In this document: piece by piece, positions 27,867-47,061 of the stretch
How the letters are laid out: every line of letters begins with the position of its first letter
Position numbering within the stretch: the first letter of the stretch is position 1
The notes under the pieces: model-generated
Seen by the model: the letters and a program-made list of their open reading frames with translations, nothing else
Database searches by the model: none
Told to the model about the DNA's origin: nothing
Program-made: the position numbers and the translations under genes
DNA from: Gammaproteobacteria bacterium
Lineage (GTDB): Bacteria > Pseudomonadota > Gammaproteobacteria > Steroidobacterales > Steroidobacteraceae
Assembly (NCBI GenBank): GCA_013289615.1
Contig: JABCZO010000009.1
Coordinates: 1-64,000 of the forward strand
Direction: 5' to 3'
DNA: 64,000 bases

Positions 27867-28766
27867 ATGGGTACGCGCGAGCCGCCGCCGGCGGCCACAG
27901 AAACCGGGGCTGTTCCCAATGCAGCGCTCGAACTCGAGCTCGAGCGCCTGCGTGCGCACATAGCCGACACCCACGAGCAGCTGCGACAGGAAATCGCCCG
28001 GCGCGAAGACTGCGATCGGCGCTGCGATGCCGCCGAGCAGGTATTGCGGGGTCGACAGCGCCTGGAGGCGCTCGGAACGCTGGCCGGTGGAGTCGCCCAC
28101 GAGATCAACAACTGTGTCCTGCCGATCATGCTGTACGTACAGGGGATACTCGAGCGCGGCGGCATCAGCACGGCCGCGCGCGAGGATCTTGAGCTGGTGC
28201 TGAACACGGCGCGACGAGCCAAACAGGTGGTCGAACAGGTATTGCGCTACGCGCGCCAACCCGCCAGCCACGAGCTACGGCGCGTAGACCTGCGCGAGCC
28301 GGTCGACGAGGCGCTGCGTCTCATCCGCGCGCTGGCGTCGCCGGCGATCGAGCTGCGATCGGAGGTTGTCGCGGATTGTCCGGCGGTCATGGCGGATCCG
28401 GCAGCACTGGTGCAGGTAGTGGTCAATCTGTGTACCAACGCCCTGCAGGCGATGCAGCCGAAGGCCGGCACACTGTGCGTGACGCTGAGCGAACACCGCG
28501 CCGACGGGTCGGATCCCACGATCCCACGAGCGCGCTACGCCAGGATGCTGGTCGCCGACAGCGGCAGCGGCATGGATCGCGCAACGCTTGAGCAGATGTT
28601 CCAGCCCTTCTTCACCACCCGGCCGCCGGGGCAGGGCACCGGGCTCGGACTGCTCATGGTGCAGAGAATCGTGCAGAGCATGCATGGTCTGATCAGCGTC
28701 AGCTCCGTGCCCGATCAGGGCACCGCCGTGCAGATCCTGTTTCCCGAGGCCGAACAACCAGGCTAG
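27867..28766 (+). CDS. Soluble histidine kinase, no obvious sensor domain
   Basis: 299 residues. No membrane helix. A coiled-coil N-terminus (about 20-62) leads to the H box GGVAHEINN with H78, then N box NLCTNALQAM, G1 ADSGSGMD, F box FQPFFTTRP and G2 GTGLGL. This is the NtrB-like HisKA/HATPase_c class. No response regulator gene is adjacent, so it is an orphan or works with the regulators at 52272-54190. GGAG at 27855-27858 supports the start. Its stop overlaps that of the convergent cytochrome-binding-protein gene (CTAG, 28763-28766). Confidence 0.85.
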   Translation: MGTREPPPAATETGAVPNAALELELERLRAHIADTHEQLRQEIARREDCDRRCDAAEQVLRGRQRLEALGTLAGGVAHEINNCVLPIMLYVQGILERGGISTAAREDLELVLNTARRAKQVVEQVLRYARQPASHELRRVDLREPVDEALRLIRALASPAIELRSEVVADCPAVMADPAALVQVVVNLCTNALQAMQPKAGTLCVTLSEHRADGSDPTIPRARYARMLVADSGSGMDRATLEQMFQPFFTTRPPGQGTGLGLLMVQRIVQSMHGLISVSSVPDQGTAVQILFPEAEQPG

Positions 28767-30388
28767 GGCACGATCCAGGATCCGTCGGGCGTGACCGTGT
28801 GCGTGGCTGCATCGGAAATATGCACCAGGTAGCCGCCCTTGGAGGCAAATCGCTGGCCCGGCCCCAGACCCAGGTGTGGGTAATAGCCGTTCAGCGTGCG
28901 AAAGCTCATTAGATTTTCATACTGCTCGACCAGGTAGTCGCGCATGAAGTTGCCAAATTCGGCGCCCAGCGCTTCAGCCAGAATCACACACGCCAGATAA
29001 GAGTCCACCTGCGTGCGCTCCTCGGTCACGGCGATGCCTTGAACCTTGAACCAGGTGAGCGCCCAGCTGAGTCGCAGACGTCGCTGCTCGGGCAAGTCCA
29101 CCGGATAGGTCAGGAATGTGCTCGCCAGCCACGCCGACGGCAGCGGCGAGCGCTCGAGGCCACCGATCAGACCCGAGGCCCACAGGCTCGACGGCGGCGC
29201 AGCGGCCGGCAGTCGGCGCAGGTCCTCGGCTCGCAACCACAGGATCAGCGCGTCGCCTGCAGCCGCGTGCCCGACTGCCGCTGCCAACTGCGTCGCATCG
29301 GCGTCAGCCGTGAGCACCTCGTTGTCCACGCTGATCGAGCGCTGCGCCATCGACGCGGCCAGCGCTTTGGCGGCGGGCGCGCCGATGTCATCGGCACGGT
29401 AGACCTGCACGACATGGCGCGTGCTGGCCGGCAATCGCGCAGCAATCAGCTCGGCTTCGAGCAGCACGCCGGCCGAGTAATACACCGAGTAGAAGTCGCC
29501 TTCGTGCTCTACCGGCAGATCCACATTCGGCAGCAGACACGGCAGTTGAGCGTCTTCACAGAACTGATGGATCGGCCACCAGGCGCGCCCTGCGATTCCC
29601 GAGACCACCGCCATGACTGGCTCGGCGCGCAGTTTGGCGCGCAGCTGTGCCTGCCACGTCTCCGCTGCTCCGCTCAGAGTCCACACGTGCAACTGCCAGC
29701 GTCGCAGCACCCGATAGTGGATCCGCCGCGCCGACTCGAGCGGCGGTGCATCGCCGCGATAGTAGGCGTCCTTGTTGTCGAAGAAATGGTGCAGCACTTC
29801 GAGCATCGCGCGGGCGCGTTCAGGATCGGCGTCCGGGGTCACGATGGTTGCAAAATGAATAGTGTCGGTGTCGACCCCCGGTGCCATGGTCGGCGACAGC
29901 GTTCGCAGGTAGGCAATCAACCCCGCCATGGTGGCATCGTCGAGCGCGTAGTGCGGCATCAATGCGCTCAGCGGTTGGCCGGTGGGTCCAAGGCCACTGC
30001 GAATCGCGCGCGCCAGGGTCGCGTCGGTGTAGCGCACGCGATTGTAGGCCGCTGCCGGCCGCGGGCCCGACGGACTCTCCGGCGCCGGGCGCTCACCGGG
30101 ATTGAACAGGTAGTGACCGGTGATTGGCGGTATCACCACGCGGCCTTCCGCCACCCCAAGGCCGCTGCGCCGGTGGCAGCTTACGCAAGCCGCGTTCTTG
30201 CCGCTGACCTGAGCCCCGCCATCGCGCGCGCCGATAAGCGCTGCGCCGGACGGCAACATGCCGCTTCGATACAGCGCTTGCGCGCCGCTCTGACCGAGTA
30301 CATCGGCCGCCTGGGCGTCGCCACACGCCCATGCACCGAGCAGCGCCAGCGCAACTGCGAGTGAACCCAGCCCGCGCTTGGCACGCAA
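28763..30388 (-). CDS. Cytochrome c - periplasmic binding protein fusion (left copy)
   Basis: 541 residues with a TTG start (GGAG lies 10 nt upstream on the minus strand). Signal peptide about 1-27; one heme motif C68-V-S-C71-H72 in a mono-heme cytochrome c domain, whose likely axial Met is in ALMPHY; from about 180 a type 1 periplasmic binding domain like those of branched-chain amino-acid ABC transporters (FATIVTPDADPERA, ...VVQVYRADDIGAPAAKALAAS). The product resembles the protein at 49420-51063 along its entire length. The SCO gene lies 15 nt upstream. Role unknown; I infer a redox-linked ligand-binding subunit serving the copper-protein cluster. Confidence 0.85.
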   Translation of the reverse strand: MRAKRGLGSLAVALALLGAWACGDAQAADVLGQSGAQALYRSGMLPSGAALIGARDGGAQVSGKNAACVSCHRRSGLGVAEGRVVIPPITGHYLFNPGERPAPESPSGPRPAAAYNRVRYTDATLARAIRSGLGPTGQPLSALMPHYALDDATMAGLIAYLRTLSPTMAPGVDTDTIHFATIVTPDADPERARAMLEVLHHFFDNKDAYYRGDAPPLESARRIHYRVLRRWQLHVWTLSGAAETWQAQLRAKLRAEPVMAVVSGIAGRAWWPIHQFCEDAQLPCLLPNVDLPVEHEGDFYSVYYSAGVLLEAELIAARLPASTRHVVQVYRADDIGAPAAKALAASMAQRSISVDNEVLTADADATQLAAAVGHAAAGDALILWLRAEDLRRLPAAAPPSSLWASGLIGGLERSPLPSAWLASTFLTYPVDLPEQRRLRLSWALTWFKVQGIAVTEERTQVDSYLACVILAEALGAEFGNFMRDYLVEQYENLMSFRTLNGYYPHLGLGPGQRFASKGGYLVHISDAATHTVTPDGSWIVP

Positions 30389-30403: not shown

Positions 30404-31024
30404 CTAGCGCGCGGCTAACAGTTGCCGATAGGAGTGCAACAGTTGTGTCGGGGTCAAAAATCCATCGATGCGCGTCCACGGCTGCCCGGGGGCGAGCCTG
30501 AGAAAGGTTTGCGGCGTATGCGCCATCTTATCGCCGCGATAGACGCCAAAGGCGCGTTGCACGGCGAAGCTGGCTGCACGCGTGCCGGTGAAATAGTCCC
30601 AGTTGCTGTCGACTTGAAACTGCCTGGCGTAGTTGCGCAAGATCTTGGGCGTGTCCTGCTCAGGATCGATGGAGATGGAAACCACGTGCACCTGCGAGCG
30701 CTCCTCGCCCAGCCGTGCACGAAAATCGGCCACGACCTGGCTGAGCAGCGGACAGATCGAGGTGCAGCTGGTGTAGATGAAGTTCAGTACCAGCGGGCGG
30801 CCGTCATCCAGGGCGGCGCGCAGTGACAGCTCCTTGCCATCGGCCCGGATCAATTGCACATCGGGCACCGTGATCACGGCCGATGAGAACCGCGCGCTGT
30901 CGGTCATCTCGACCGCTGCGCGCTCTTGCGCCTGCGCATGCGCGGACGCGAGCGACAGCACGCTGCTGCACACCAGGCTTGCGGCCAGGCGGCACAGGCC
31001 TGCTGGATCGGATTCCCATTTCAT
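30404..31024 (-). CDS. SCO1/SenC copper chaperone (left copy)
   Basis: 206 residues, signal sequence (about 1-30), thioredoxin-fold SCO domain with the copper motif C87-T-S-I-C91 in FIYTSCTSICPLLS, the downstream conserved His in DKMAHTPQTF, and SIDPEQDTP. SCO proteins deliver copper to, or reduce cysteines at, CuA and other copper sites. Here no cytochrome oxidase is nearby, so the likely clients are the multicopper proteins encoded divergently at 31685-35662. A paralogue is at 48728. Confidence 0.93.
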   Translation of the reverse strand: MKWESDPAGLCRLAASLVCSSVLSLASAHAQAQERAAVEMTDSARFSSAVITVPDVQLIRADGKELSLRAALDDGRPLVLNFIYTSCTSICPLLSQVVADFRARLGEERSQVHVVSISIDPEQDTPKILRNYARQFQVDSNWDYFTGTRAASFAVQRAFGVYRGDKMAHTPQTFLRLAPGQPWTRIDGFLTPTQLLHSYRQLLAAR

Positions 31025-31684: not shown

Positions 31685-33901
31685 ATGGTCAGCACACGTC
31701 TTTGTCGCTACGGATTGGTGCTTGCGCTGATGTTTTTATTCGCAGGCAATGCACACGCGCAGAATTTCATGGTGCAGTGTCCGTACAGCACGCTGTGGCA
31801 CCCGGGCGGTATGGGTGCGGGAGCGGGGTCCACCAACCCCTATGCCTTGTGGCCCAACTCCAGTACCTCAGGTGAGCCGCTCTACCACGGCCCACTCGCC
31901 TATAGCCCCGTGACCACCTTAACGAACAGCGTGCCGCTGAGCTACACGCTCAGCGGCGGCGCGGTCAAGTGCCAGCAGATCTCCGGCGGCGACGGCTACA
32001 TGACCGAGGCCGATGGCAACCAGACCTTCATGTTCTCGTTCGGACCCTTAAGCGGTCTGGACAAGATCCAGAACGGCGGGGCCGGAACCGATTATCCGGA
32101 CGAGTTCGACCAGCCTTATTGCAATACGTCGAAGCCTTATAACAACGGTCAGCCGAATCCGTACGTGGCCGGACAGCCGAATCCTCTGGCGCCGAACACC
32201 CTACTGAAATCGTGCAGCAACAACGCTGCGGTCGGCTACCTGCCGCCTGCGGGCTACAACCCGGCGATCGGCCAGTCGGTCCTCGTCGGTAATGGGAACC
32301 CGATCACCACACCCACCGGAGTCTTTGCAGTCGTCCTGCTTGCGGATGCCGATACTCCGGGTGTGACCCAGGGCTCCGGTTACGCCTCGCCCCCGCTGGT
32401 GACCTTTGGCCCCCCGGATTGCAAGACCGCCGGCCAGGTGATCCCCGGCTATGCCCCGTGCCCGGCGCCGGTACAGGCCACTGGATCGGCGACCATCGGC
32501 CAAGGCGCAGTGATCGCGGTTGCCATCACCAATCCGGGCAACGGTTACGTAAACCCGCCGAGCACGACGTTCACGCCGACCTCGCCCACCAGCACGATCC
32601 CCGGAACCGACCCGGCAGCGATCATGAATACCGGGGTAATGAACGGCAACATCCCGGCCCCTGAAATCGCGTTCGACGAGGACGACGAGTTTTTCCTGAC
32701 GCTGACCAACGTCGGCATGATCATGCGGCCGGACCTGTTCGAGCAGCACACCGTCCACTTCCATGGCTACCCGAACGCCTCCTCGTTCTATGACGGCGTG
32801 CCCGATGCCTCGCTCGCGATCAACATCGGCGCCAGCTTCACCTATTACTACCTGGCGCCGGATGCTGGAACGTACTTCTGGCACTGCCACATCACGCCGC
32901 CAGAGCATCTGCAGATGGGCATGGTCGGGCAGCTGTACGTGCGGCCGCGACAGAATCGCGTGCCGGTCGGAACGGATCTGTATCAGTCGCTTGCCGCCCC
33001 GGCGGGCATTGCGGTCACGTACGGCGACGGCAAGGTGGGTTTGAGCCAGCAGAGCGACCTGCGCACCGCGTGCAATTCGAACGGCGAGAGCAACCTGTAC
33101 GCCGGAACGACCTCGGCGCCCAGCGCTGACATCCTGTGCTCGGTGCCCTCGCCGGCGGCGGACCTCAAAACCGTGCAGATCGCGGGCGCCAAGTACGTCT
33201 ACAACGACGGCGACGGCTCGACGCGCTACGACGTCGACGTGCCGCTCCAGATGCACGACTTTGATCCGAACTTCCACTTCGTCGGCATGACCTTCAACCC
33301 CGAAGGCTTTGCCGACATGAAGGGTAAGTATTTCCTGCTCGACGGCCGTAGCTATCCAGACACGGTCGGCCTGAAGGCCGGAAGCTTTGCGGGCTGGAGC
33401 GGCGGAGTGCCTTCCACGGGCACGACCAATCCGGACCCGGTCACGAATGCGATCTTCACGCAAGGCTCGGATGGCCAATCGCGGCCCGAGCAGCCGATTC
33501 CATCGCTGATCGTGCTGAGCCAGACCGGCAGCGTGGATGGCAACGGGAAAGCGACGCCGCAGCGCGCCGCGCTGCGCCTGGTGAACCTGTCGGTGGAGCA
33601 ATACCACACGCTGGCCTCGCTGAGCATCCCGATGCATGTGATCGGCTGGAACGCGAAGATGCTGCGCGATCAGGCCGGCAACAACATGGACTACTACACC
33701 AATTCGATCACGATCGGTGGCGGCGAGTCGATGGACGCCATCCTCGATACCTGCGCGGTGCGTGGGCCGGCGCCGGCGTACGCCTGCACGACACCGGTAC
33801 CGGTGGGCACCTATTTCATCTACACGCCCAACCTCGACCATCTTTCGAACGACGCGGAGAACTTCGGTGGAATGATGACCGAAGTGGTCGTCACGCCCTA
33901 G
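31685..33901 (+). CDS. Multicopper oxidase-type protein 1 (type 1 Cu plus half of trinuclear ligands)
   Basis: 738 residues from ATG 31685, chosen for the GGAGG at 31672-31676 and a clear signal peptide (MVSTRLCRYGLVLALMFLFAG, AHA cleavage). A cupredoxin domain contains H355-T-V-H358-F-H360-G and then H400-C401-H402-ITPPE-H408-x4-M413, i.e. a complete type 1 copper set (H355, C401, H408, M413) and four His of a trinuclear site (358, 360, 400, 402). The remaining cupredoxin-like domains lack HxH motifs (the C-terminal region reads YTPNLDHLSNDAENFGGMM), so this chain alone cannot build a full laccase-type centre. Gly-Asn-Pro-rich insert around 170-320. Twelve nt before the next multicopper gene. 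Confidence 0.87.
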   Translation: MVSTRLCRYGLVLALMFLFAGNAHAQNFMVQCPYSTLWHPGGMGAGAGSTNPYALWPNSSTSGEPLYHGPLAYSPVTTLTNSVPLSYTLSGGAVKCQQISGGDGYMTEADGNQTFMFSFGPLSGLDKIQNGGAGTDYPDEFDQPYCNTSKPYNNGQPNPYVAGQPNPLAPNTLLKSCSNNAAVGYLPPAGYNPAIGQSVLVGNGNPITTPTGVFAVVLLADADTPGVTQGSGYASPPLVTFGPPDCKTAGQVIPGYAPCPAPVQATGSATIGQGAVIAVAITNPGNGYVNPPSTTFTPTSPTSTIPGTDPAAIMNTGVMNGNIPAPEIAFDEDDEFFLTLTNVGMIMRPDLFEQHTVHFHGYPNASSFYDGVPDASLAINIGASFTYYYLAPDAGTYFWHCHITPPEHLQMGMVGQLYVRPRQNRVPVGTDLYQSLAAPAGIAVTYGDGKVGLSQQSDLRTACNSNGESNLYAGTTSAPSADILCSVPSPAADLKTVQIAGAKYVYNDGDGSTRYDVDVPLQMHDFDPNFHFVGMTFNPEGFADMKGKYFLLDGRSYPDTVGLKAGSFAGWSGGVPSTGTTNPDPVTNAIFTQGSDGQSRPEQPIPSLIVLSQTGSVDGNGKATPQRAALRLVNLSVEQYHTLASLSIPMHVIGWNAKMLRDQAGNNMDYYTNSITIGGGESMDAILDTCAVRGPAPAYACTTPVPVGTYFIYTPNLDHLSNDAENFGGMMTEVVVTP

Positions 33902-33913
33902 GAGACTGCAACG

Positions 33914-35662
33914 ATGAGCTACTCCATCAACAAGAACTGCGGCACACCGGTACGGCGCTCATGGGGCGGGTCGATCGCGCTCGGGGTGCTCGCCTGCGCA
34001 ATGGGGACGGCCTCAGCCGCGGTGCCCGGCATCACCGGTACGTCGTTCGCCCTGCAGGCCAACCAAGGCTACAGCTCACAGCCGGACGGCATGCAGATCT
34101 ACTCGTGGGGCTATGGCTGCGCCGCTACATATTCGCCGCTGTTTGCGCCGGCCATCTTCAACGCGCCCGCCACCCAGGGAGTTTGTCCGGCCATGCAGCT
34201 GCCCGGCCCGACCCTGATCGTGACCGAGGGCCAGACGGTCACGGTGACGCTGACCAACAACCTGCCACCTGCAGCAGGCAACACCTCGATCGTTTTCACC
34301 GGCTTCACGCCGGTCACGACGACCGGTAGTCCCGGGGCCGGTCAGCTGACGTCAACTGGAGGCACTCAGGGGGTGATGGCGATGGAGGCGGGCACCGGTA
34401 CGACGGTGACCTATACGCTGAACACGACCGGCAAGGCCGGCACGCACGCCTACTACAGCGGCACGCAACCCGATCTTCAGGTCGAGATGGGCCTGTACGG
34501 CGCGCTGGTGGTGCTGCCGATCACCCCCGGAGTGATGCCCGGAAGCAGCGCGCCATCGCCTTGCACGAAGCTCGGCGCCCGGCTCGAGGGCGGTGTGGAA
34601 TATCGGCTGTCCACCGCCGCCTATGATCATCCGGCCACCTGCTACGACATCGAGTACCTGTGGCAGTGGGGCGAGATCGACCCGGTCATCCACGCGCAGG
34701 CCCAGGCGCAGGTCGCAGCGACGCCAGCCTGCACATTGGCGAAGGGATGCCTGTCGGTGGTCACCGAACCCTACCACCCGCGCTATTTCGTGATCAACGG
34801 CCGCTCGATGCCGGACGACATGGATCCGGACTATGCGCCCAATTACCCGGCTCAGCCGTACAACGGCAATCCGCACATGCATCCGCTCGATGCGGTGCTG
34901 GTGCGCACGATCGGGCAGGGGCGCTGGGAGCATCCGTTCCACGAGCACGCCAACCACGTGCGCATTCTGGCACGTGACGGCAATCTCATTCTGAGCCAGA
35001 CCGATCAAACCAAACTCGCCGGCCTCATGATGTTCGACACCGACACCTGGCCGGGCCAGGCGTTCGATGGCATCTTCTACTGGAGTGGCCACGGACTGGG
35101 TTGGGACATCTACGGCCACACCCCGAAGTTGGTAGACGGCACCGTCCGGCCGGCCTGCACCGGCGCGTCCAGCATGAAGGGGATATCGGCCGCGTGCGAA
35201 CCGGAGTGCATACCGGATGCGAACGGCTACTTCACGCATGCGACCGGCGCGGTGGCGCCGGTGTTCGCCAAAACTGCGCCGTACGCACTCTCGAACCCAA
35301 CCGCGGCGTCGCTGAACTACGGCGAGTGGTGCGCGGATCATGAACATCCGCTAGAGGCCAGCCCTGCCGGCCAGGTCGGCGTCGGAGGACCGGCGACGCT
35401 GCCCGATCCACTGGTGGCGACTAACGGTCTGTGGTTCAACGGCACGCCCTACCTCGGTCCGGATGCAGTGAACCGAAGTCGCGGACCGACACCGCTGCCG
35501 CCGGGCGGCGCGCTACAGAACCCGCCGCTGGAGTCCGGTATCGCCTTCATGTGGCACTCGCATAACGAGCGAGAAATCACCACCAACGATGTCTTTCCGG
35601 GCGGCATGCTGATGATGATGCTGGTCGATCCGCCGGTTTGGTACATCGACGAAACGCTGTGA
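33914..35662 (+). CDS. Multicopper oxidase-type protein 2 (complementary trinuclear ligands, no type 1 Cu)
   Basis: 582 residues, signal peptide about 1-35, GGAG at 33901-33904. The first cupredoxin domain has the MCO scaffold (GPTLIVTEGQTVTVTLTNNLP; MGLYGALVVLP) but its usual HxHG and HSH motifs are replaced (IVFTGF and YYSGTQ). The C-terminal cupredoxin carries H340-P-F-H343-E-H345-ANH and W-H548-S549-H550-NERE. With Ser instead of Cys and no following His/Met pair there is no type 1 site, but the four His (343, 345, 548, 550) are exactly the half-set missing from protein 1. I infer a heteromeric oxidase. The stop lies 17 nt before the start of the giant gene. Confidence 0.85.
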   Translation: MSYSINKNCGTPVRRSWGGSIALGVLACAMGTASAAVPGITGTSFALQANQGYSSQPDGMQIYSWGYGCAATYSPLFAPAIFNAPATQGVCPAMQLPGPTLIVTEGQTVTVTLTNNLPPAAGNTSIVFTGFTPVTTTGSPGAGQLTSTGGTQGVMAMEAGTGTTVTYTLNTTGKAGTHAYYSGTQPDLQVEMGLYGALVVLPITPGVMPGSSAPSPCTKLGARLEGGVEYRLSTAAYDHPATCYDIEYLWQWGEIDPVIHAQAQAQVAATPACTLAKGCLSVVTEPYHPRYFVINGRSMPDDMDPDYAPNYPAQPYNGNPHMHPLDAVLVRTIGQGRWEHPFHEHANHVRILARDGNLILSQTDQTKLAGLMMFDTDTWPGQAFDGIFYWSGHGLGWDIYGHTPKLVDGTVRPACTGASSMKGISAACEPECIPDANGYFTHATGAVAPVFAKTAPYALSNPTAASLNYGEWCADHEHPLEASPAGQVGVGGPATLPDPLVATNGLWFNGTPYLGPDAVNRSRGPTPLPPGGALQNPPLESGIAFMWHSHNEREITTNDVFPGGMLMMMLVDPPVWYIDETL

Positions 35663-35679: not shown

Positions 35680-38600
35680 ATGCGTATGAACAAAAAGTCA
35701 CTCAGCACTGCGATCCTGACCGGATCGGCCCTTCTGCTCACCGCGGGTGTCGCGGTGGCGCAGTCGGTGGTCAACCTGACAGCGCTGCGTCAGACGATCG
35801 TCACGCCCGACGGCAACATCGTGCCGATGTGGGGCTGGCAGTGTGCCGCGAGCACCACGACCCCGACCAATGTGCCCTGCACGCAGACCAACGGTGTGGC
35901 GCAGGCCGGTGGCACGACCTGGCAGCCGCCGCTGATTACCGTGCCCTATACGGTCAACACGACGACCGGCGCCAGCACGACCGGCCTGACGATCTACCTG
36001 ACCAACAATTTGCCGGTACCGACCTCCCTGACCCTGGTCGGACAGATTCCAAGCGGTACGCTCTCCGGCACCGTAACAACGCCGACCGACACGAATGGGC
36101 CCGGCAACCCGACGCGTGAGAGCGGACGGCTTCAGCATAGCGCGCAGACCTCGACCACCTGGACCACGGTGGTCAGCAACCAGCTAGCGTTCACGCCGCC
36201 GACCCAGGGCCAGCGCGCGCAGTCGTTCGTGCAGGAGGCCGCGGCGACCACCGGCACTATCACCTATAAGTGGAACTCCCTGACGCCGGGCACGTACCTG
36301 ATCGAGACCGGCTCCTATCCGTCGATCCAGGGCCCGATGGGCCTGTACGGCGTGCTGGTCGTCACCAACGCTCCGACCGGTAGCGGGACGACTTCGTTCG
36401 TGCCCGGCACAGCGTATCCAAGTCCGGCAGGCGCAGTGACGACGACGGGTGTTCCGTACGACGCCGACGGCGTGCTGCTGATGAGCGAAATCGACGCGGT
36501 GCAGAACCAGGCGGCCGACACCGCGGCGCGCACCACCGGGTTTAGCCCGTTCAAGACCTGGAGCCCCGCGTGCTCGCCCACCGGACCTGCCGGGACTGCA
36601 AACACCTGCTATCCGGCAGCCGTGGACTACACGCCGACCTATTACCTGATCAATGGCCATTCCTTCGACCGCACCAACCCGGCGTTCTCGGCTGTGAATG
36701 TTGGTTCGAATGATTCGAGCGGCACCGTGCTGCTGCGCTTCGTGAATGCCGGCCTGCGCATGCACATGCCGTCGGTGTACGGCCTGCAGATGACGCTGAT
36801 CGCCGATGACGGCCACCTGCAACCCGACGTGGCGCTGGCGCTGACCAAGGGAACGACGTTGGCCACCTGTCCGAGCGGCAACACGCCGATCGTAGGCGGC
36901 TGCCCCAAGACGCAGAACGACTTTTTCATGCCGGCCGGCAAGGTGCTTGACATCGCGGTGAAGCCGGCGGGTACGACCGCAGCCGGCTACACCTCCAGCT
37001 ACTATCCTGCCTTCGATCGCGCGCTCAGCCTCTCTACCAACAACGAGCGCGACGGCGGCATGCAGGCTTACCTCGTGATCAACGGTGGGGCGCCGACTAC
37101 AACCGCCGGGGTGACCACGGGATTCACCAATGTGTCGCTGACGAGCGTGACGGTAGCCGTGCAGGCCAATCCCGACAAATTCACGCTACCGGCCAATAGT
37201 CTTGCGCCGTTCACCTTCAACGTGCTGGCCAACGATGTGGGCATCAGCGGCGCGGTCCCGTTTGGCGTGCCCGCGTGCACCGCTCCCGGACAGACTAACT
37301 GTCTGTACCCGAACGGCATGTATACCTACGTGCCGACCGCCGTGAACACGGCGTTGACGTTTAACTATTGCGGCAACGGCACCACGACTTATGCAGCAGG
37401 CCCCACCTGCGCGACCGTCACGGTCGCATCGGCGGCGCTTGGCGGCGGGCCGACAGGGGTCGCCAGCAAATTCGCCAGCAAGGTCAACACGCTGCTGAAT
37501 GTGCAGGAGCCTGGCGTGCTGGCGGTCGACAGCGATCCGACCGGCTACCGCCTCTATGCGAGCATTTGCAACAACACGACTTCTGCTGGCTGCACGCCCG
37601 GGTCGCCCGGCACGTCGCCGGCGAACCCGGCCATCGGTGTGGCCGCACCGGCCAACGTCGTCGATGGCGCCGCGCACGTCACCAGCGGCGCCTGCACGGT
37701 CACGCTGCAGTCCAACGGATCGTTCACCGCGGCGACGCCGGCCAACCTGGCCGGCAGTAGCTGCACGTTCCAGTACTACGCGATTAATGCGCAGGGCACG
37801 GCCAGCGCAGCGACCAGCGTTACACTGACGTTCCCGCCGCCGAGCGGTCTGAATGTGGTGGTGCAGGACGCCACCACCAACGTGGTGATGGGCGACTACA
37901 AGTGGGTCATCGAGCAGGACCTGACGTTCAAGATCGACCCGGCCTGCCAGACCAACGCAAGCACGAGCACTACGCCTCTGCTCGGATCGGACGGCAAACC
38001 CTGTCCGAAGGTTGCCACCGGAGTTCCGCCGACGCTGGGTACCAACTTCCACACCAGTTACATGCCGGTGATCGCCAGCGGCTGCACCGGCCCGCAGAGC
38101 TGCGAGCGAGGTCAAAGCGTATACAACCCGGTGACCGGCACGCATCAGCCGGCGACCTGCAACCACGGTGTCTGCCTTCCGAACGGGACCAGCTTGCCGA
38201 CGTCACTTCCGAAAGACGTTCAGCTCAACGCCTTCGATCCGGACGGCGTCACACCGGCCCGCTACTACATCTCGATACTGCCCGGCGACTCGGCCAATCC
38301 CGCGAACGTCGGCGCCAATGGATACCCCGGTCCATTTACGCAGCCGGCCTGCGAGGGCGCACTGACAGCGACGACAGCCACGGGTCTGACCGTTCCGGTC
38401 TGCGGGCACACGATGAGCGGTGCACCGATTTCTGCGCCGAGCTGCACCGGGACCGCCGCGACGGCTGGAGTGACCTGCACGTTTCCCAACGGTACCGGAG
38501 GCCTGACGGGAGGCACCCCGCTGCCCGGATCACCGGGCTACGCGCTCACGATCCCGGTTCAGCCGAACCCGCTGCTGACCGCGCAGCTGACGATCTTCGT

Positions 38601-44600: not shown

Positions 44601-47061
44601 TCTGACCCCGGCGGCGACGGTGGACGAGGGCAACAACTGGATCAACATGTTCTACGGTCCGCTCACCAATGTGAATCCGACCGTCGCCAGGGGAACTACC
44701 GGTTACGGAACGGCATTGGGTAGTTACTCGCCCGCGTCGAGCTCCTCGCCGGCCGTCAATGTGATACCGGTGTCGGTTTCACACCCGGCGCTGGACTTCT
44801 TCGGCAATCCGCGCCCGGACAACACGAGCGATACATATTTTGATATCGGCGCAGTTGAGATCGGCGCCGGCGCGGCGATCGCGAGCGTCACACCCACCTC
44901 ATTGGCCTTTGGCAGCGTGCCGGACGGTACCACCAGTACCGCGCAGACGCTGACGCTGCATAACACCGGAACCGCGAGCCTGACCGGCATCACGGTTGTG
45001 GTCACGGCGCCGTACTCCCGCCCCGCCGGCGTGGCAGGCGGTACCTGCACCGCGACGCTGGCAGCGGTGAGCACCTGCACGATCAACATCGTGTTCTCGC
45101 CGACGGCCACGGGCGCGGCCCCTGGCACGGCAACGATCACCGGCAGTGCCGCTGTAACCGGCTCGCCCGTGGCGCTGACCGGCACTGGCGCGACGGCATC
45201 GACCGCGAGCGTCACGGGTGGTCCGCTGGCGTTTGGCAGCGTGGCCGTCAGTACGACCAGTGCCGCGCAGACGCTGACGCTGCACAACACCGGAACTGTG
45301 GGCCTGACTGGCATTACGATCACGGACACGCCACCGTTCCATCACGTGGGCGGTAGCTGCGGCCCGACGCTGGCCGCTGCGAGCACCTGCACGATCACCA
45401 TTGTGTACCAGCCGACCGCCACCGGTGCGGCGACCGGCACGACGACGATCACCAGCAACCTTGCGGTGACCGGCTCGCCGGTGGCGGACTCGGGCACCGG
45501 CGTGACGGGGCCATCGACCGCGAGCGTCACGGGCGGTCCGCTGGCGTTTGGCAGCGTAGCCGTGGGTGCCACCAGTGCAGCGCAGACGCTGACACTTACC
45601 ACCGGAACGGTGGGCCTGACCGGCATTAATATCTCCGACACGGCACCGTTCCATCACCTGGGCGGTACCTGCGGCACGACGCTGGCGGCTGCGAGCAGCT
45701 GCACGTTCACCGTTGTGTTCCAGCCGACCGCCGCCGGTGCGGTGAGCGGCACCTCGACGATTACCAGCAACGTTGCGATTAACGGTTCGCCGGTGGCGGA
45801 CTCGGGCACCGGCGTGACGGGGCCATCGACCGCGAACGTCACACCCACCTCATTGGCCTTTGGCAGCGTGGCCGTCGGTACCACCAGTGCCGCGCAGACG
45901 CTGACGCTCAGTAACACCGGAACGACGGGCATGACCGGCATTACGATCTCGGACACGGCACCGTTCCATCACCTGGACGGTACCTGCGGCACGACGCTGG
46001 CCGCTGGCAGCAGCTGCACGTTCACCGTTGTGTTCCAGCCGACCGCCACCGGTGCGGCGAGCGGCACGACGATGATCACCAGTAACGTTGCGGTGACCGG
46101 CTCGCCGGTGGCGGACACGGGCACCGGCGTGACCGCGGCATCGACCGCGAACGTCACCGGTGGTCCGCTGGCCTTTGGCAGCGTAGCGGTCGGGGCGACC
46201 AGTGCCCCGCTGACGCTCACGCTGCACAACACCGGAACGACCGGCCTGACCGGCGTTAACATCTCGGACACGGCACCGTTCCATCACCTGGGCGGAACCT
46301 GCGGCACGACGCTGGCAGCTGGCAGCACCTGCACGTTCACCGTTGTGTTCCAGCCGACCGCCACCGGTGCGGCGAGCGGCACCTCGACGATCACCAGTAA
46401 CGTTGTAGTTAGCGGCTCGCCGGTGGCGGACTCGGGCACCGGGACATCGACCGCGAGCGTCACCGGTGGTCCGCTGGCCTTTGGCAGCGTGGCGGTCGGG
46501 GCAACCAGTGCTCCGCTGACGCTGACGCTGCACAACACCGGAACGACCGGCCTGACCGGCGTTAACATCTCGGACACGGCACCGTTCCATCACCTGGGCG
46601 GAACCTGCGGCACGACGCTGGCAGCTGGCAGCACCTGCACGTTCACCGTTGTGTTCCAGCCGACCGCCACCGGTGCGGCGAGCGGCACCTCGACGATCAC
46701 CAGTAACGTTGCGGTGACCGGCTCGCCCGTGGCGGACTCGGGAACCGGGACATCGACCGCGAGCGTCACGGGCGGTCCGCTCGCGTTTGGCAGCGTGGCA
46801 GTCGGGGCGACCAGTGCCCCGCTGACACTGACGCTGCACAACACCGGGACGACGGGACTGACCGGCGTTAACATCTCGGACACGGCACCGTTCCATCACT
46901 CGGGCGGTACCTGCGGCACGACGCTGGCCGCGGGGGCCACCTGCACGTTCACCGTGGTGTTCCAGCCGACGGCCGCCGGTTCATTCACCGGCACCTCGAC
47001 GATCACCAGCAACGTTGCGGTTACCGGCTCGCCGGTGGCGGACTCCGGGAGCGCACCCTAG
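35680..47061 (+). CDS. Giant secreted multidomain protein (3,793 aa): degenerate MCO, SdrD-like, IPT, beta-helix, ASH repeats
   Basis: Start ATG 35680 with CCGGAG at 35669-35674 and a signal peptide (MRMNKKSLSTAILTGSALLL...). Domains in order, rough positions: degenerate multicopper-oxidase cupredoxins homologous to protein 2's N-terminus but without copper ligands (30-480; GTYLIETGSYPSIQGPMGLYG replaces the HSH loop); Ig/cadherin-like VLANDVG region (490-725); several prealbumin/SdrD-like domains (about 970-1720; DLNGNGIQDGEPG); a further one near 1865-1960; IPT/TIG-like (2030-2190); right-handed beta-helix (2200-2820; IIVGPGTYTE, NNRMTGNAG); a FDIGAVEIG motif near 3055; seven choice-of-anchor/ASH-type repeats to the C-terminus. 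No membrane anchor or LPXTG. Probably an extracellular or surface scaffold for the oxidase proteins (inference). The MCO part is followed by nothing catalytic that I recognise. Confidence 0.87.
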   Translation: MRMNKKSLSTAILTGSALLLTAGVAVAQSVVNLTALRQTIVTPDGNIVPMWGWQCAASTTTPTNVPCTQTNGVAQAGGTTWQPPLITVPYTVNTTTGASTTGLTIYLTNNLPVPTSLTLVGQIPSGTLSGTVTTPTDTNGPGNPTRESGRLQHSAQTSTTWTTVVSNQLAFTPPTQGQRAQSFVQEAAATTGTITYKWNSLTPGTYLIETGSYPSIQGPMGLYGVLVVTNAPTGSGTTSFVPGTAYPSPAGAVTTTGVPYDADGVLLMSEIDAVQNQAADTAARTTGFSPFKTWSPACSPTGPAGTANTCYPAAVDYTPTYYLINGHSFDRTNPAFSAVNVGSNDSSGTVLLRFVNAGLRMHMPSVYGLQMTLIADDGHLQPDVALALTKGTTLATCPSGNTPIVGGCPKTQNDFFMPAGKVLDIAVKPAGTTAAGYTSSYYPAFDRALSLSTNNERDGGMQAYLVINGGAPTTTAGVTTGFTNVSLTSVTVAVQANPDKFTLPANSLAPFTFNVLANDVGISGAVPFGVPACTAPGQTNCLYPNGMYTYVPTAVNTALTFNYCGNGTTTYAAGPTCATVTVASAALGGGPTGVASKFASKVNTLLNVQEPGVLAVDSDPTGYRLYASICNNTTSAGCTPGSPGTSPANPAIGVAAPANVVDGAAHVTSGACTVTLQSNGSFTAATPANLAGSSCTFQYYAINAQGTASAATSVTLTFPPPSGLNVVVQDATTNVVMGDYKWVIEQDLTFKIDPACQTNASTSTTPLLGSDGKPCPKVATGVPPTLGTNFHTSYMPVIASGCTGPQSCERGQSVYNPVTGTHQPATCNHGVCLPNGTSLPTSLPKDVQLNAFDPDGVTPARYYISILPGDSANPANVGANGYPGPFTQPACEGALTATTATGLTVPVCGHTMSGAPISAPSCTGTAATAGVTCTFPNGTGGLTGGTPLPGSPGYALTIPVQPNPLLTAQLTIFVFEDDAPLNGEHDVGGNNNEPALGGFQVELWDEMAQSGDFTGQMTYDIFNMPLSNALNGTIDPLTGRNACPVGATGPDNSGNLNQVASGMIIVCPQYEDDGVTPSPLAGNALVKNLMPGRFGVIVHPSAAREAAGEVWYQTNTLDGTHFLDSFVKVGEPAYFQEYGPGGYHVFMGMANPAVINARKASFCNGPPAVSCTNTVTGQVSNLHENRAPDETLYDSGVFPIGNPANYRAFAHTTCWASLGDPDGLTFAFTNCDANGNYSFTGIPDGNWSLVVGDQWNDLIVDGSSKPVDVCSGSSCTVKTPNPYLIDSSTFSWQTHVWNSVFMDLNGNGIQDGEPGLIQVPVRIRFRNGRFNNTQFTDVTGHANFNETFPLFNWYVIESDDTRFKNTGVHVVYDYGGQIDGPSGTNCLGAASGGSSNQSNSATNPCGNGNAGSYQGLLNSNERIPVPANLRYPGSYYCQFGDCSELNGTTGFPAAGGPGGSTGRVDPGSVVTEGLQGFLSQTEVLEWGKLPYLPGENGGVRGHVVYSSTRPFDDPTILFQNLWEPLVPNVTINLYQELAQPDGTVGLKLVDTTLTSSWDAYTQGSRSGAGTASAIPNLNCTGQTTADPFFGYTLAGTPQYLYPNTPLPYNSQYKCYDGLHNFNQVQPAPYDGLYLFPSVTNNPVTGAVGTNCTACIANPNAGAPGSAASILPAGKYVVEVVVPPGYELVKEEDKNILIGDAFIASATVSPQFVGLGDIFIVPDQASINQNNINGVYNPAMNSNFANPSYTGPVTGGANPYTNCTTASTTGCPPAGNNGNPTATMGRDQFGGFGPGGLTTLNTPCVGEERIVPDFMSISPESGQVAPFAGATRPLCDRKELVLNDQMQAQTDFFIWTKTPAATHYTGFILDDFSSEFDQSSPSFGEKFAVPNLNVSLKDFNGVEVSRVYSDQWGLYNGLLFSTWEVNPPNPTGYSPGMYITEMNSPGPIFAPACITPPTSTTAGFPLGCVTNQTNPPTIRITDPYYNPGYSTFDYENPFMPGDTTYLDTPVIPLMAFAEAYNPPDCAYPDATPAIASVTAPADTLSLNSASAAGTGTYSGPWVSAAGHSLVISALGDQIVPNYAYSGPSTSTSPFNQRTITRHYGFGAQCTAVSGACTNVSTVTIGGATAPVTAWTDTSITVTVPTLTTAQSSCTFQQSGVATPTLCGQLVVTTGTGQHSIDAVTVTIGGKPPTYIAQEKLTPDTFGSTLPNALQTAIDNAASGDLIIVGPGTYTEMLQMWKPVRLQGVAAATTIINANTQPAGKLDPWRRRLNCLFGLGLSGQEMGATVTTTTATGPASYTTVYDPTGVYSCNFGVITNGSTVEAAVDPIELEPIIGWDSNLNGNLSELLQEPTLMGAYEGAAITVLGKGVENYQFSSTATACGAEGNTSCVVLNNCAGSITTNTTTGAVTCHVPAVTGQALGDCNPASNFYTGNFLCNPARIDGLTLTNSSQGGGALFVHGWNHYLEISNNRMTGNAGTLTGGITLGQPEVPDPTYVTVGSGAGAYMAATPLAIDQYVNMHNNAVTFNSAYGDELNSNTPAAGGGVTVNTGSDYYKFAYNFVCGNLSSGDGGGMTHFGLSFGGNISHNAFLYNQSTNPSLTTNGGGLIIEGNAPDGTLAENSQVDVDLGPSLSDGIGSGMVVDSNLIMGNTAESGEGGGLRLQSINGNDIVNNPSNSAHWYTISVINNIIANNVAGWEGGGVSIQDAVAVDFRNNTVVSNDVTATAGVLFDTLGAQYANTSPPNCNPDTGVGCTNPITTSVPLPAGLVTHPHSLLLSPAFTDPTVTCPNATAAGYTTGTSAANPSDCARVSKPVIANDIIFNNRPFYMTTAGSPSVVVLTPALSQPATPAVTNGVVTGGTGACPTGATHWDIGVYGDNTISGGNPGGYKLNPTYSILTDLTGPAGGYAAGNNLAPPAGGLFTSMYCNGSRVPPEISPTVCTSTANAAGCTYPGALGITVPPGVPDNNPFYANFNLTPAATVDEGNNWINMFYGPLTNVNPTVARGTTGYGTALGSYSPASSSSPAVNVIPVSVSHPALDFFGNPRPDNTSDTYFDIGAVEIGAGAAIASVTPTSLAFGSVPDGTTSTAQTLTLHNTGTASLTGITVVVTAPYSRPAGVAGGTCTATLAAVSTCTINIVFSPTATGAAPGTATITGSAAVTGSPVALTGTGATASTASVTGGPLAFGSVAVSTTSAAQTLTLHNTGTVGLTGITITDTPPFHHVGGSCGPTLAAASTCTITIVYQPTATGAATGTTTITSNLAVTGSPVADSGTGVTGPSTASVTGGPLAFGSVAVGATSAAQTLTLTTGTVGLTGINISDTAPFHHLGGTCGTTLAAASSCTFTVVFQPTAAGAVSGTSTITSNVAINGSPVADSGTGVTGPSTANVTPTSLAFGSVAVGTTSAAQTLTLSNTGTTGMTGITISDTAPFHHLDGTCGTTLAAGSSCTFTVVFQPTATGAASGTTMITSNVAVTGSPVADTGTGVTAASTANVTGGPLAFGSVAVGATSAPLTLTLHNTGTTGLTGVNISDTAPFHHLGGTCGTTLAAGSTCTFTVVFQPTATGAASGTSTITSNVVVSGSPVADSGTGTSTASVTGGPLAFGSVAVGATSAPLTLTLHNTGTTGLTGVNISDTAPFHHLGGTCGTTLAAGSTCTFTVVFQPTATGAASGTSTITSNVAVTGSPVADSGTGTSTASVTGGPLAFGSVAVGATSAPLTLTLHNTGTTGLTGVNISDTAPFHHSGGTCGTTLAAGATCTFTVVFQPTAAGSFTGTSTITSNVAVTGSPVADSGSAP
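44881..47058 (+). repeat. Seven tandem ~310-nt repeats encoding ASH/choice-of-anchor-type Ig domains
   Basis: Units begin at 44881, 45205, 45520, 45832, 46147, 46453 and 46759, each starting A-S/N-V-T..(S/P)LAFGSV and ending near TGSPVADSGTG. Each carries a Cys pair (GGTCGTTLAA...CTFTVVFQPTA). The last three units are almost identical at nucleotide level. Confidence 0.9.

Follow-up and report, generated by a model that had tools for sequence, protein, structure and literature searches.

A conserved cassette of three diverged two-cupredoxin proteins proposed to form a heterotrimeric multicopper oxidase with its copper ligands divided between two chains

Type C two-domain multicopper oxidases are homotrimers with three sites, and copper nitrite reductase (NirK) is a trimer of two-cupredoxin chains whose domain 1 holds the type 1 copper and whose catalytic copper lies between protomers, its type 2 site taking one His from domain 2 without the full HxH quartet (x, any residue). 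The chains of two-domain oxidases are described as trimeric, with the copper cluster held by residues of two protomers, and in type C it is the N-terminal domain that carries the type 1 site (PMC13151041). In six-domain oxidases, according to a published survey, the cluster lies between domains 1 and 6 or 2 and 3; the latter placement is that of the bacterial forms, whose type 1 site is in domain 2, and the survey counts MnxG among the six-domain proteins (PMC3600357). The Mnx complex, MnxE3F3G, also contains MnxE and MnxF, which are about 12 kDa and are described as having no known homologues (PMC5622069). Here we analyze a 64,000-nucleotide stretch of DNA, termed the window, from a Gammaproteobacteria bacterium of the Steroidobacteraceae (GenBank assembly GCA_013289615.1, contig JABCZO010000009.1, positions 1 to 64,000), in which three consecutive plus-strand genes encode the proteins that we call P1, P2, and P3. 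An initial annotation of this DNA had read P1 and P2 as an obligate heteromeric oxidase with an inter-chain trinuclear center. That remains the best-supported reading of the sequences, given the complementary invariant ligands, the homology to domains 1 and 2 of known enzymes, and the strict co-occurrence of the two genes, but the two-gene picture lacked a third subunit, P3. We now propose, with a probability of roughly 80%, that P1, P2, and the N-terminus of P3 form a heterotrimeric, type C-like oxidase with an inter-chain site between P1 and P2.

The proposal is based first on the copper ligands. P1 (31685..33901, on the plus strand like all parts of the trio) is a protein of 738 amino acids with two cupredoxin domains and, from its open reading frame and alignments, the sole type 1 copper site of the trio; judging from its N-terminus, it is probably exported. 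Its active domain (residues 318-423, 32636..32953, Pfam Cu-oxidase_3) carries the predicted ligand motifs H355-x2-H358-x-H360 (32747..32764) and H400-C401-H402-x5-H408-x4-M413 (32882..32923), and all eight residues (H355, H358, H360, H400, C401, H402, H408, and M413) are invariant in 39/39 rows of one alignment (A4) and in 16/16 rows of a more divergent set that partly overlaps it (A6). The type 1 site residues H355, C401, H408, and M413 occur in P1 only, in its N-terminal cupredoxin domain. P1 has exactly two HxH pairs (358-360 and 400-402, with 0.26 expected from composition) and none in its second cupredoxin domain (approximately 33194..33895), which is colinear with domain 2 of P2 in hhalign and has lost its ligands. 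The initial annotation had placed a type 1 site and four His in one domain of P1 and none outside it in other domains, and this is what we find; both reading frames and every residue it quoted are likewise borne out by the open reading frames and a check of the sequence.

P2 (33914..35662, 582 amino acids) is also a two-cupredoxin protein by its open reading frame and alignments, predicted to be exported, and is without the type 1 Cys. Its first cupredoxin domain (residues 94-201, 34193..34516, Pfam Cu-oxidase_3) has no HxH and has lost its ligands, and its active second domain (approximately 34766..35659) carries the predicted ligand motifs H340-P-F-H343-E-H345 (34931..34948) and H548-S-H550 (35555..35563). 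H340, H343, H345, H548, and H550 are invariant in 41/41 rows of alignment A3 and in 18/18 rows of A5, which holds more compact forms, the two row sets partly overlapping. The initial annotation had described these motifs and the empty first domain correctly but overlooked that P2 has four HxH pairs (321-323, 343-345, 476-478, and 548-550, with 0.49 expected). Of the two additional pairs, H476-E-H478 is variable (in A5, H476 in 17/18 rows and H478 in 2/18). H321-M-H323 (34874-34882), present in 40/41 rows of A3 and in A5 with H321 in 9/18 and H323 in 15/18, is perhaps a clade-specific metal site. Because neither pair is invariant, the count of four HxH pairs across both chains, as originally claimed, holds for the invariant pairs. 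The single HxH of P3, at residue 2770, lies outside its cupredoxin domains. The eight trinuclear-type His are divided four to P1 and four to P2, with none as HxH in the cupredoxin domains of P3. In a joint alignment, P3 has a His at the position of the first His of the P2 motif in 5/6 compact loci, which may perhaps be a relic.

The three proteins are related to one another. P3 (35680..47061, with the start codon chosen by us) is a giant, apparently exported protein of 3793 amino acids and the third gene of the cassette, and begins with a cupredoxin pair without HxH (approximately 35761..37107, from hhalign with P2 and P1). The hhalign comparisons span both cupredoxin domains in each case, with values of 100% and 5.3e-45 for P2 and P3, 99.8% and 1.7e-27 for P1 and P2, and 99.3% and 1.8e-20 for P1 and P3. 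By these profile comparisons P1, P2, and the N-terminus of P3 are shown to be three diverged copies of one two-cupredoxin unit, and the ligand positions retained in one paralogue are absent from the others. In compact, divergent loci the open frames are, in most cases, about 410-510 amino acids for P1 and about 455-540 for P2, and go down to 349 for P3; in the smallest (L162) they are 511, 460, and 349 amino acids, and P3 there consists of just two cupredoxin domains. Since the compact loci shrink all three genes, two cupredoxin domains form the core of each. The compact P3 of three loci (L130, L131, and L139) have C-terminal thrombospondin type 3 repeats, unexpected beside a copper-oxidase fold, and the first two also have a dockerin-like stretch that falls below the Pfam cut-off.

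The relationship to enzymes of known structure follows the same division. Searched against the sequences of the Protein Data Bank, the P1 profile has as its top matches domain 1 of 3g5w (1.2e-19) and of 2zwn (2.7e-17), followed by ascorbate oxidase, nitrite reductases, and laccases, and the profile of P2 domain 2 (A11) has as its top matches domain 2 of 2zwn (3.8e-5) and of 3g5w (0.0012). We take 3g5w and 2zwn, a two-domain laccase, to be type C two-domain multicopper oxidases, and their HCH-H-M motif indeed sits in domain 1 in our alignments, consistent with that type. The alignment of P2 domain 2 places HPFHEH over HAMHSH and HAIHTH, and WHSH over FHDH and IHDH, of 2zwn and 3g5w. With P1 resembling domain 1 and P2 resembling domain 2 of the two-domain oxidases, the split follows the natural seam between protomers. 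The match of P1 domain 1 to copper nitrite reductases, and the fact that homotrimers are usual in the superfamily, could instead be taken to mean that no center is shared, with P1 acting as a type 1 electron carrier or as a nitrite reductase-like homotrimer and P2 binding copper or another metal alone. We consider this highly improbable, as P1 keeps both HxxHxH and HCH, which is beyond what a nitrite reductase needs, the four His of P2 are the missing half, and P1 and P2 occur together in all ten genomes of the class that carry either, as described below.

The three genes form a fixed cassette. When named genome contigs were scanned with the P1 alignment, 473 relatives were obtained, and the 80 best of them were examined. 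These 80 loci carry 81 P1 genes, three of them at a contig end, leaving 78 that can be judged, and P2 is the next gene after P1 on the same strand in all 78. P3 is next after P2 in 69/69 loci with enough downstream sequence, the other nine running off the end. Both P2 and P3 were present in 38/38 further regions, 31 of which are, judging from contig names and lengths, distinct places outside the best 80. Among 369 genomes of the class, P1 (E-value ≤ 1e-22) is found in ten, at 13 places, and strong P2 matches (E-value ≤ 3.6e-97, the next match being at 6.6e-24) are found in the same ten, at 13 places. The co-occurrence expected of a two-chain oxidase is thus seen at every locus and in every carrier genome that could be judged, and a P1 homologue without P2, the case named beforehand as refuting the idea, was not found among the best 80 of the 473 relatives or in the 369 genomes. 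P2 is present in 9/196 genomes of the order, in 8/149 genomes of the phylum of an acidobacterium, and in 2/398 genomes of the window's phylum, and P1 in 5/250 genomes of one family, where the order, phylum, and family counts include the carrier genome used as center. From these low counts the cassette is scattered rather than general. Named carriers include Trinickia, Glaciimonas, Burkholderia, Paraburkholderia, Cupriavidus, and Acidobacteria bacterium AB60, and eight plasmid records add Cupriavidus metallidurans CH34 and Paraburkholderia. Acidobacteria bacterium AB60 (G561, locus L063) has five strong P2 matches in one genome. Of two regions inspected for annotation, one carries no gene table, and in the other (L127) P1, P2, and P3 are all labelled "hypothetical protein". 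A promoter and terminator scan gave no signal above shuffles.

The constancy of P3 bears on its role. The tail of P3 contains SdrD-like, weak NosD-like, and choice-of-anchor D repeats, from which an extracellular or surface location would follow. The size of this unrelated tail, together with cupredoxin domains that lack HxH, could suggest that P1 and P2 share a trinuclear center as a dimer or mixed trimer and that P3 is a mere neighboring matrix protein with a retained fold. This is unlikely in our view, since P3 follows at every locus that extends far enough, the smallest P3 is just the two domains, and two-domain oxidases are described as trimers (PMC13151041). The C-terminus of P3 contains a tandem array (45037-47045) with a period of 306 bases, 6.5 copies, and 87% matches, lying within the stretch of choice-of-anchor D repeats. 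Many relatives have P3 frames of about 2,700-2,800 amino acids, about 1,000 shorter than in the window, although many of these are truncated where the locus ends.

The essence of the proposed heterotrimeric enzyme is a pseudo-threefold assembly of three diverged type C-like two-cupredoxin units. P1 would have retained the type 1 copper together with the four domain 1 His, P2 would have retained the four domain 2 His, and P3 would have lost both ligand sets to become the structural third protomer, its long tail serving as an extracellular scaffold. There would be one four-copper site per trimer, where domain 1 of P1 meets domain 2 of P2. Specifically, substrate would be oxidized at the type 1 copper of P1 and the electrons would pass via the Cys-His path to the inter-chain trinuclear cluster, where O2 would be reduced to water. 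Three chains give three seams, of which one has ligands, and this would explain the ever-present, ligand-free P3. The sequences most likely describe an exported oxidase that delivers four electrons to O2, for which metal ions or phenols are possible substrates. It is also fairly probable that this heterotrimeric oxidase, possibly the first to be described, arose by triplication of a type C unit and complementary ligand loss, with a site to which two gene products contribute and a third chain that braces it and anchors the enzyme in a giant extracellular protein, which would make it a dissected analogue of ceruloplasmin from another ancestor.

Several results weigh against this proposal. The strict co-occurrence at the locus level rests on the best 80 of the 473 P1 relatives, and the match of P2 to a solved domain 2 is weak (E-value 4e-5). 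A natural single-chain fusion of P1 and P2, suggested by the initial annotation as a check, was not found among the examined loci, and every testable P1 has its P2 in a separate open frame. A frame of 1244 amino acids (G885) was rejected as a fusion because it is P1, one stop codon, and P2. Two frames with weak P2 matches (L128, 1691 amino acids; L129, 1037) look like ordinary multicopper oxidases (HWH/HSH/HLH) in chance-extended frames, and a frame of 1828 amino acids (L135) consists of P1 plus a spurious-looking upstream extension. In the window, P1 and P2 share a frame with a single stop between them, and AlphaFold2 models were made of tandem chains from DNA read through the stop codon. The window model, P1(296-738)-P2 from 38 rows, has a predicted local distance difference test score (pLDDT) of 64.1 and a predicted template modeling score (pTM) of 0.73, and omits P1 residues 1-295 and hence the first strands of the P1 domain; the P1-P2-P3 model of a second locus (L138, 1193 amino acids, 35 rows) has a pLDDT of 76.1 and a pTM of 0.77. 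The two pTM values count in favor of the proposal, but local confidence at the ligand segments is uneven: the 10-residue blocks that contain ligands average 39-81 for the window and 50-89 for L138, and confidence is low at the first P1 motif in the former model and at the P2 HSH in the latter. The distances between the His sets of P1 and P2 are unreadable from these models, so that the geometry is unproven.

In Foldseek the best match of the P1-P2 model is MnxG (9bxa, 3.3e-21), and the L138 model matches 4bxs (a prothrombinase complex, factor V-like), ceruloplasmin, and factor VIII (from 1.9e-46 on), with MnxG at rank 15. A further point on the negative side is that the template modeling (TM) score to the six-domain matches is about 0.2, with root-mean-square deviations of 16-21 for the window model and 33-37 for L138. 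From these values the models share the domain order of ceruloplasmin and MnxG and not their global arrangement. Given the contact of domains 1 and 6 in ceruloplasmin, contact between P1 domain 1 and P2 domain 2 would need P2 in the third rather than the second position of the ring. A modeled arrangement unlike that of ceruloplasmin would be expected in that case, but it would fit a wrong model equally well and proves nothing.

The neighboring genes raise the question of manganese oxidases. A SCO1/SenC-type protein of the copper chaperone family (30404..31024, minus strand, Pfam SCO1-SenC 2.2e-20) and a cytochrome c protein (28763..30388, minus strand, Pfam Cytochrom_C 1.6e-5) are divergent neighbors of the cassette, the first a possible accessory protein and the second a possible electron partner, and an FKBP gene is also near. 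The 28763-30388 protein, in which a long domain comes after the cytochrome c domain, also occurs close to the cassette in some Burkholderiales, and the relative of this protein in L127 bears the annotation ABC transporter substrate-binding protein. The mof operons are described as carrying genes for an FKBP-like protein (mip) and a cytochrome c, and one strain has a copper chaperone gene as well (PMC8218464). This likeness, six cupredoxin domains in total, and the Foldseek match to MnxG could all fit a gene-split form of the single-chain six-domain manganese oxidase MnxG or MofA. We reject that idea as the least probable of those considered, judging from the placement of the active site, for which MofA is represented by the published description of bacterial six-domain oxidases. 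The type 1 site here is in domain 1 and the predicted cluster between domains 1 and 4, versus domain 2 and domains 2 and 3 in the bacterial six-domain form as reported (PMC3600357). Moreover, the best sequence matches are two-domain enzymes, MnxG is absent from the 13 matches of P2 domain 2 and from the best 60 of 192 matches of P1, and few relatives have these neighbors, an FKBP, a cytochrome c, and a SCO gene being present at 2, 6, and 7, respectively, of the 57 related loci for which 5 kilobases or more of upstream sequence were available. For the same reason the gene neighborhood was rejected as a clue to the substrate.

What is new in the proposed heterotrimeric enzyme is that the chains differ; a site between chains is what homotrimeric two-domain oxidases normally have. 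In a search that left most subscription journals outside, we found no paper on a multicopper oxidase described as heteromeric or as having an inter-subunit trinuclear site, and none of the titles and opening abstract lines from broader searches named such an enzyme. If the proposal is correct, the cassette encodes a natural four-copper, O2-reducing site that depends on two different proteins, and complementary loss has turned a homotrimer into an obligate heteromer. It would also provide a testable function for gene families of Acidobacteria, Burkholderia, Paraburkholderia, and Cupriavidus metallidurans CH34.

Compared with known systems, the trio resembles the type C two-domain oxidases in the pair of cupredoxin domains present in P1, in P2, and at the P3 N-terminus, in the location of the type 1 site in an N-terminal domain, here that of P1 only, and in drawing His pairs from both domain types for what is predicted to be an inter-protomer trinuclear site. 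It differs in that type C enzymes have all ligands in every chain, whereas here they are split over P1 and P2 with none in P3, and a single site per trimer is predicted. Unlike NirK, full His quartets are invariant in P1 and in P2, giving eight trinuclear-type His together. As in the Mnx complex, several different gene products would make up one oxidase (PMC5622069), although there MnxG has six domains and MnxE and MnxF are described as without known homologues (PMC3600357, PMC5622069). Like ceruloplasmin, MnxG, and MofA/McoA, the trio has six cupredoxin domains in all and a predicted single remaining cluster, the other sites being lost. Unlike the single chains of ceruloplasmin, MnxG, and MofA, these domains are spread over three open reading frames, with the cluster predicted between domains 1 and 4 over two chains, and in contrast to the bacterial six-domain form domain 1 of P1 holds the type 1 site and domain 2 of P2 the other His. 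Hence, if our proposal holds, the cassette parallels the single-site six-domain enzymes by another route.

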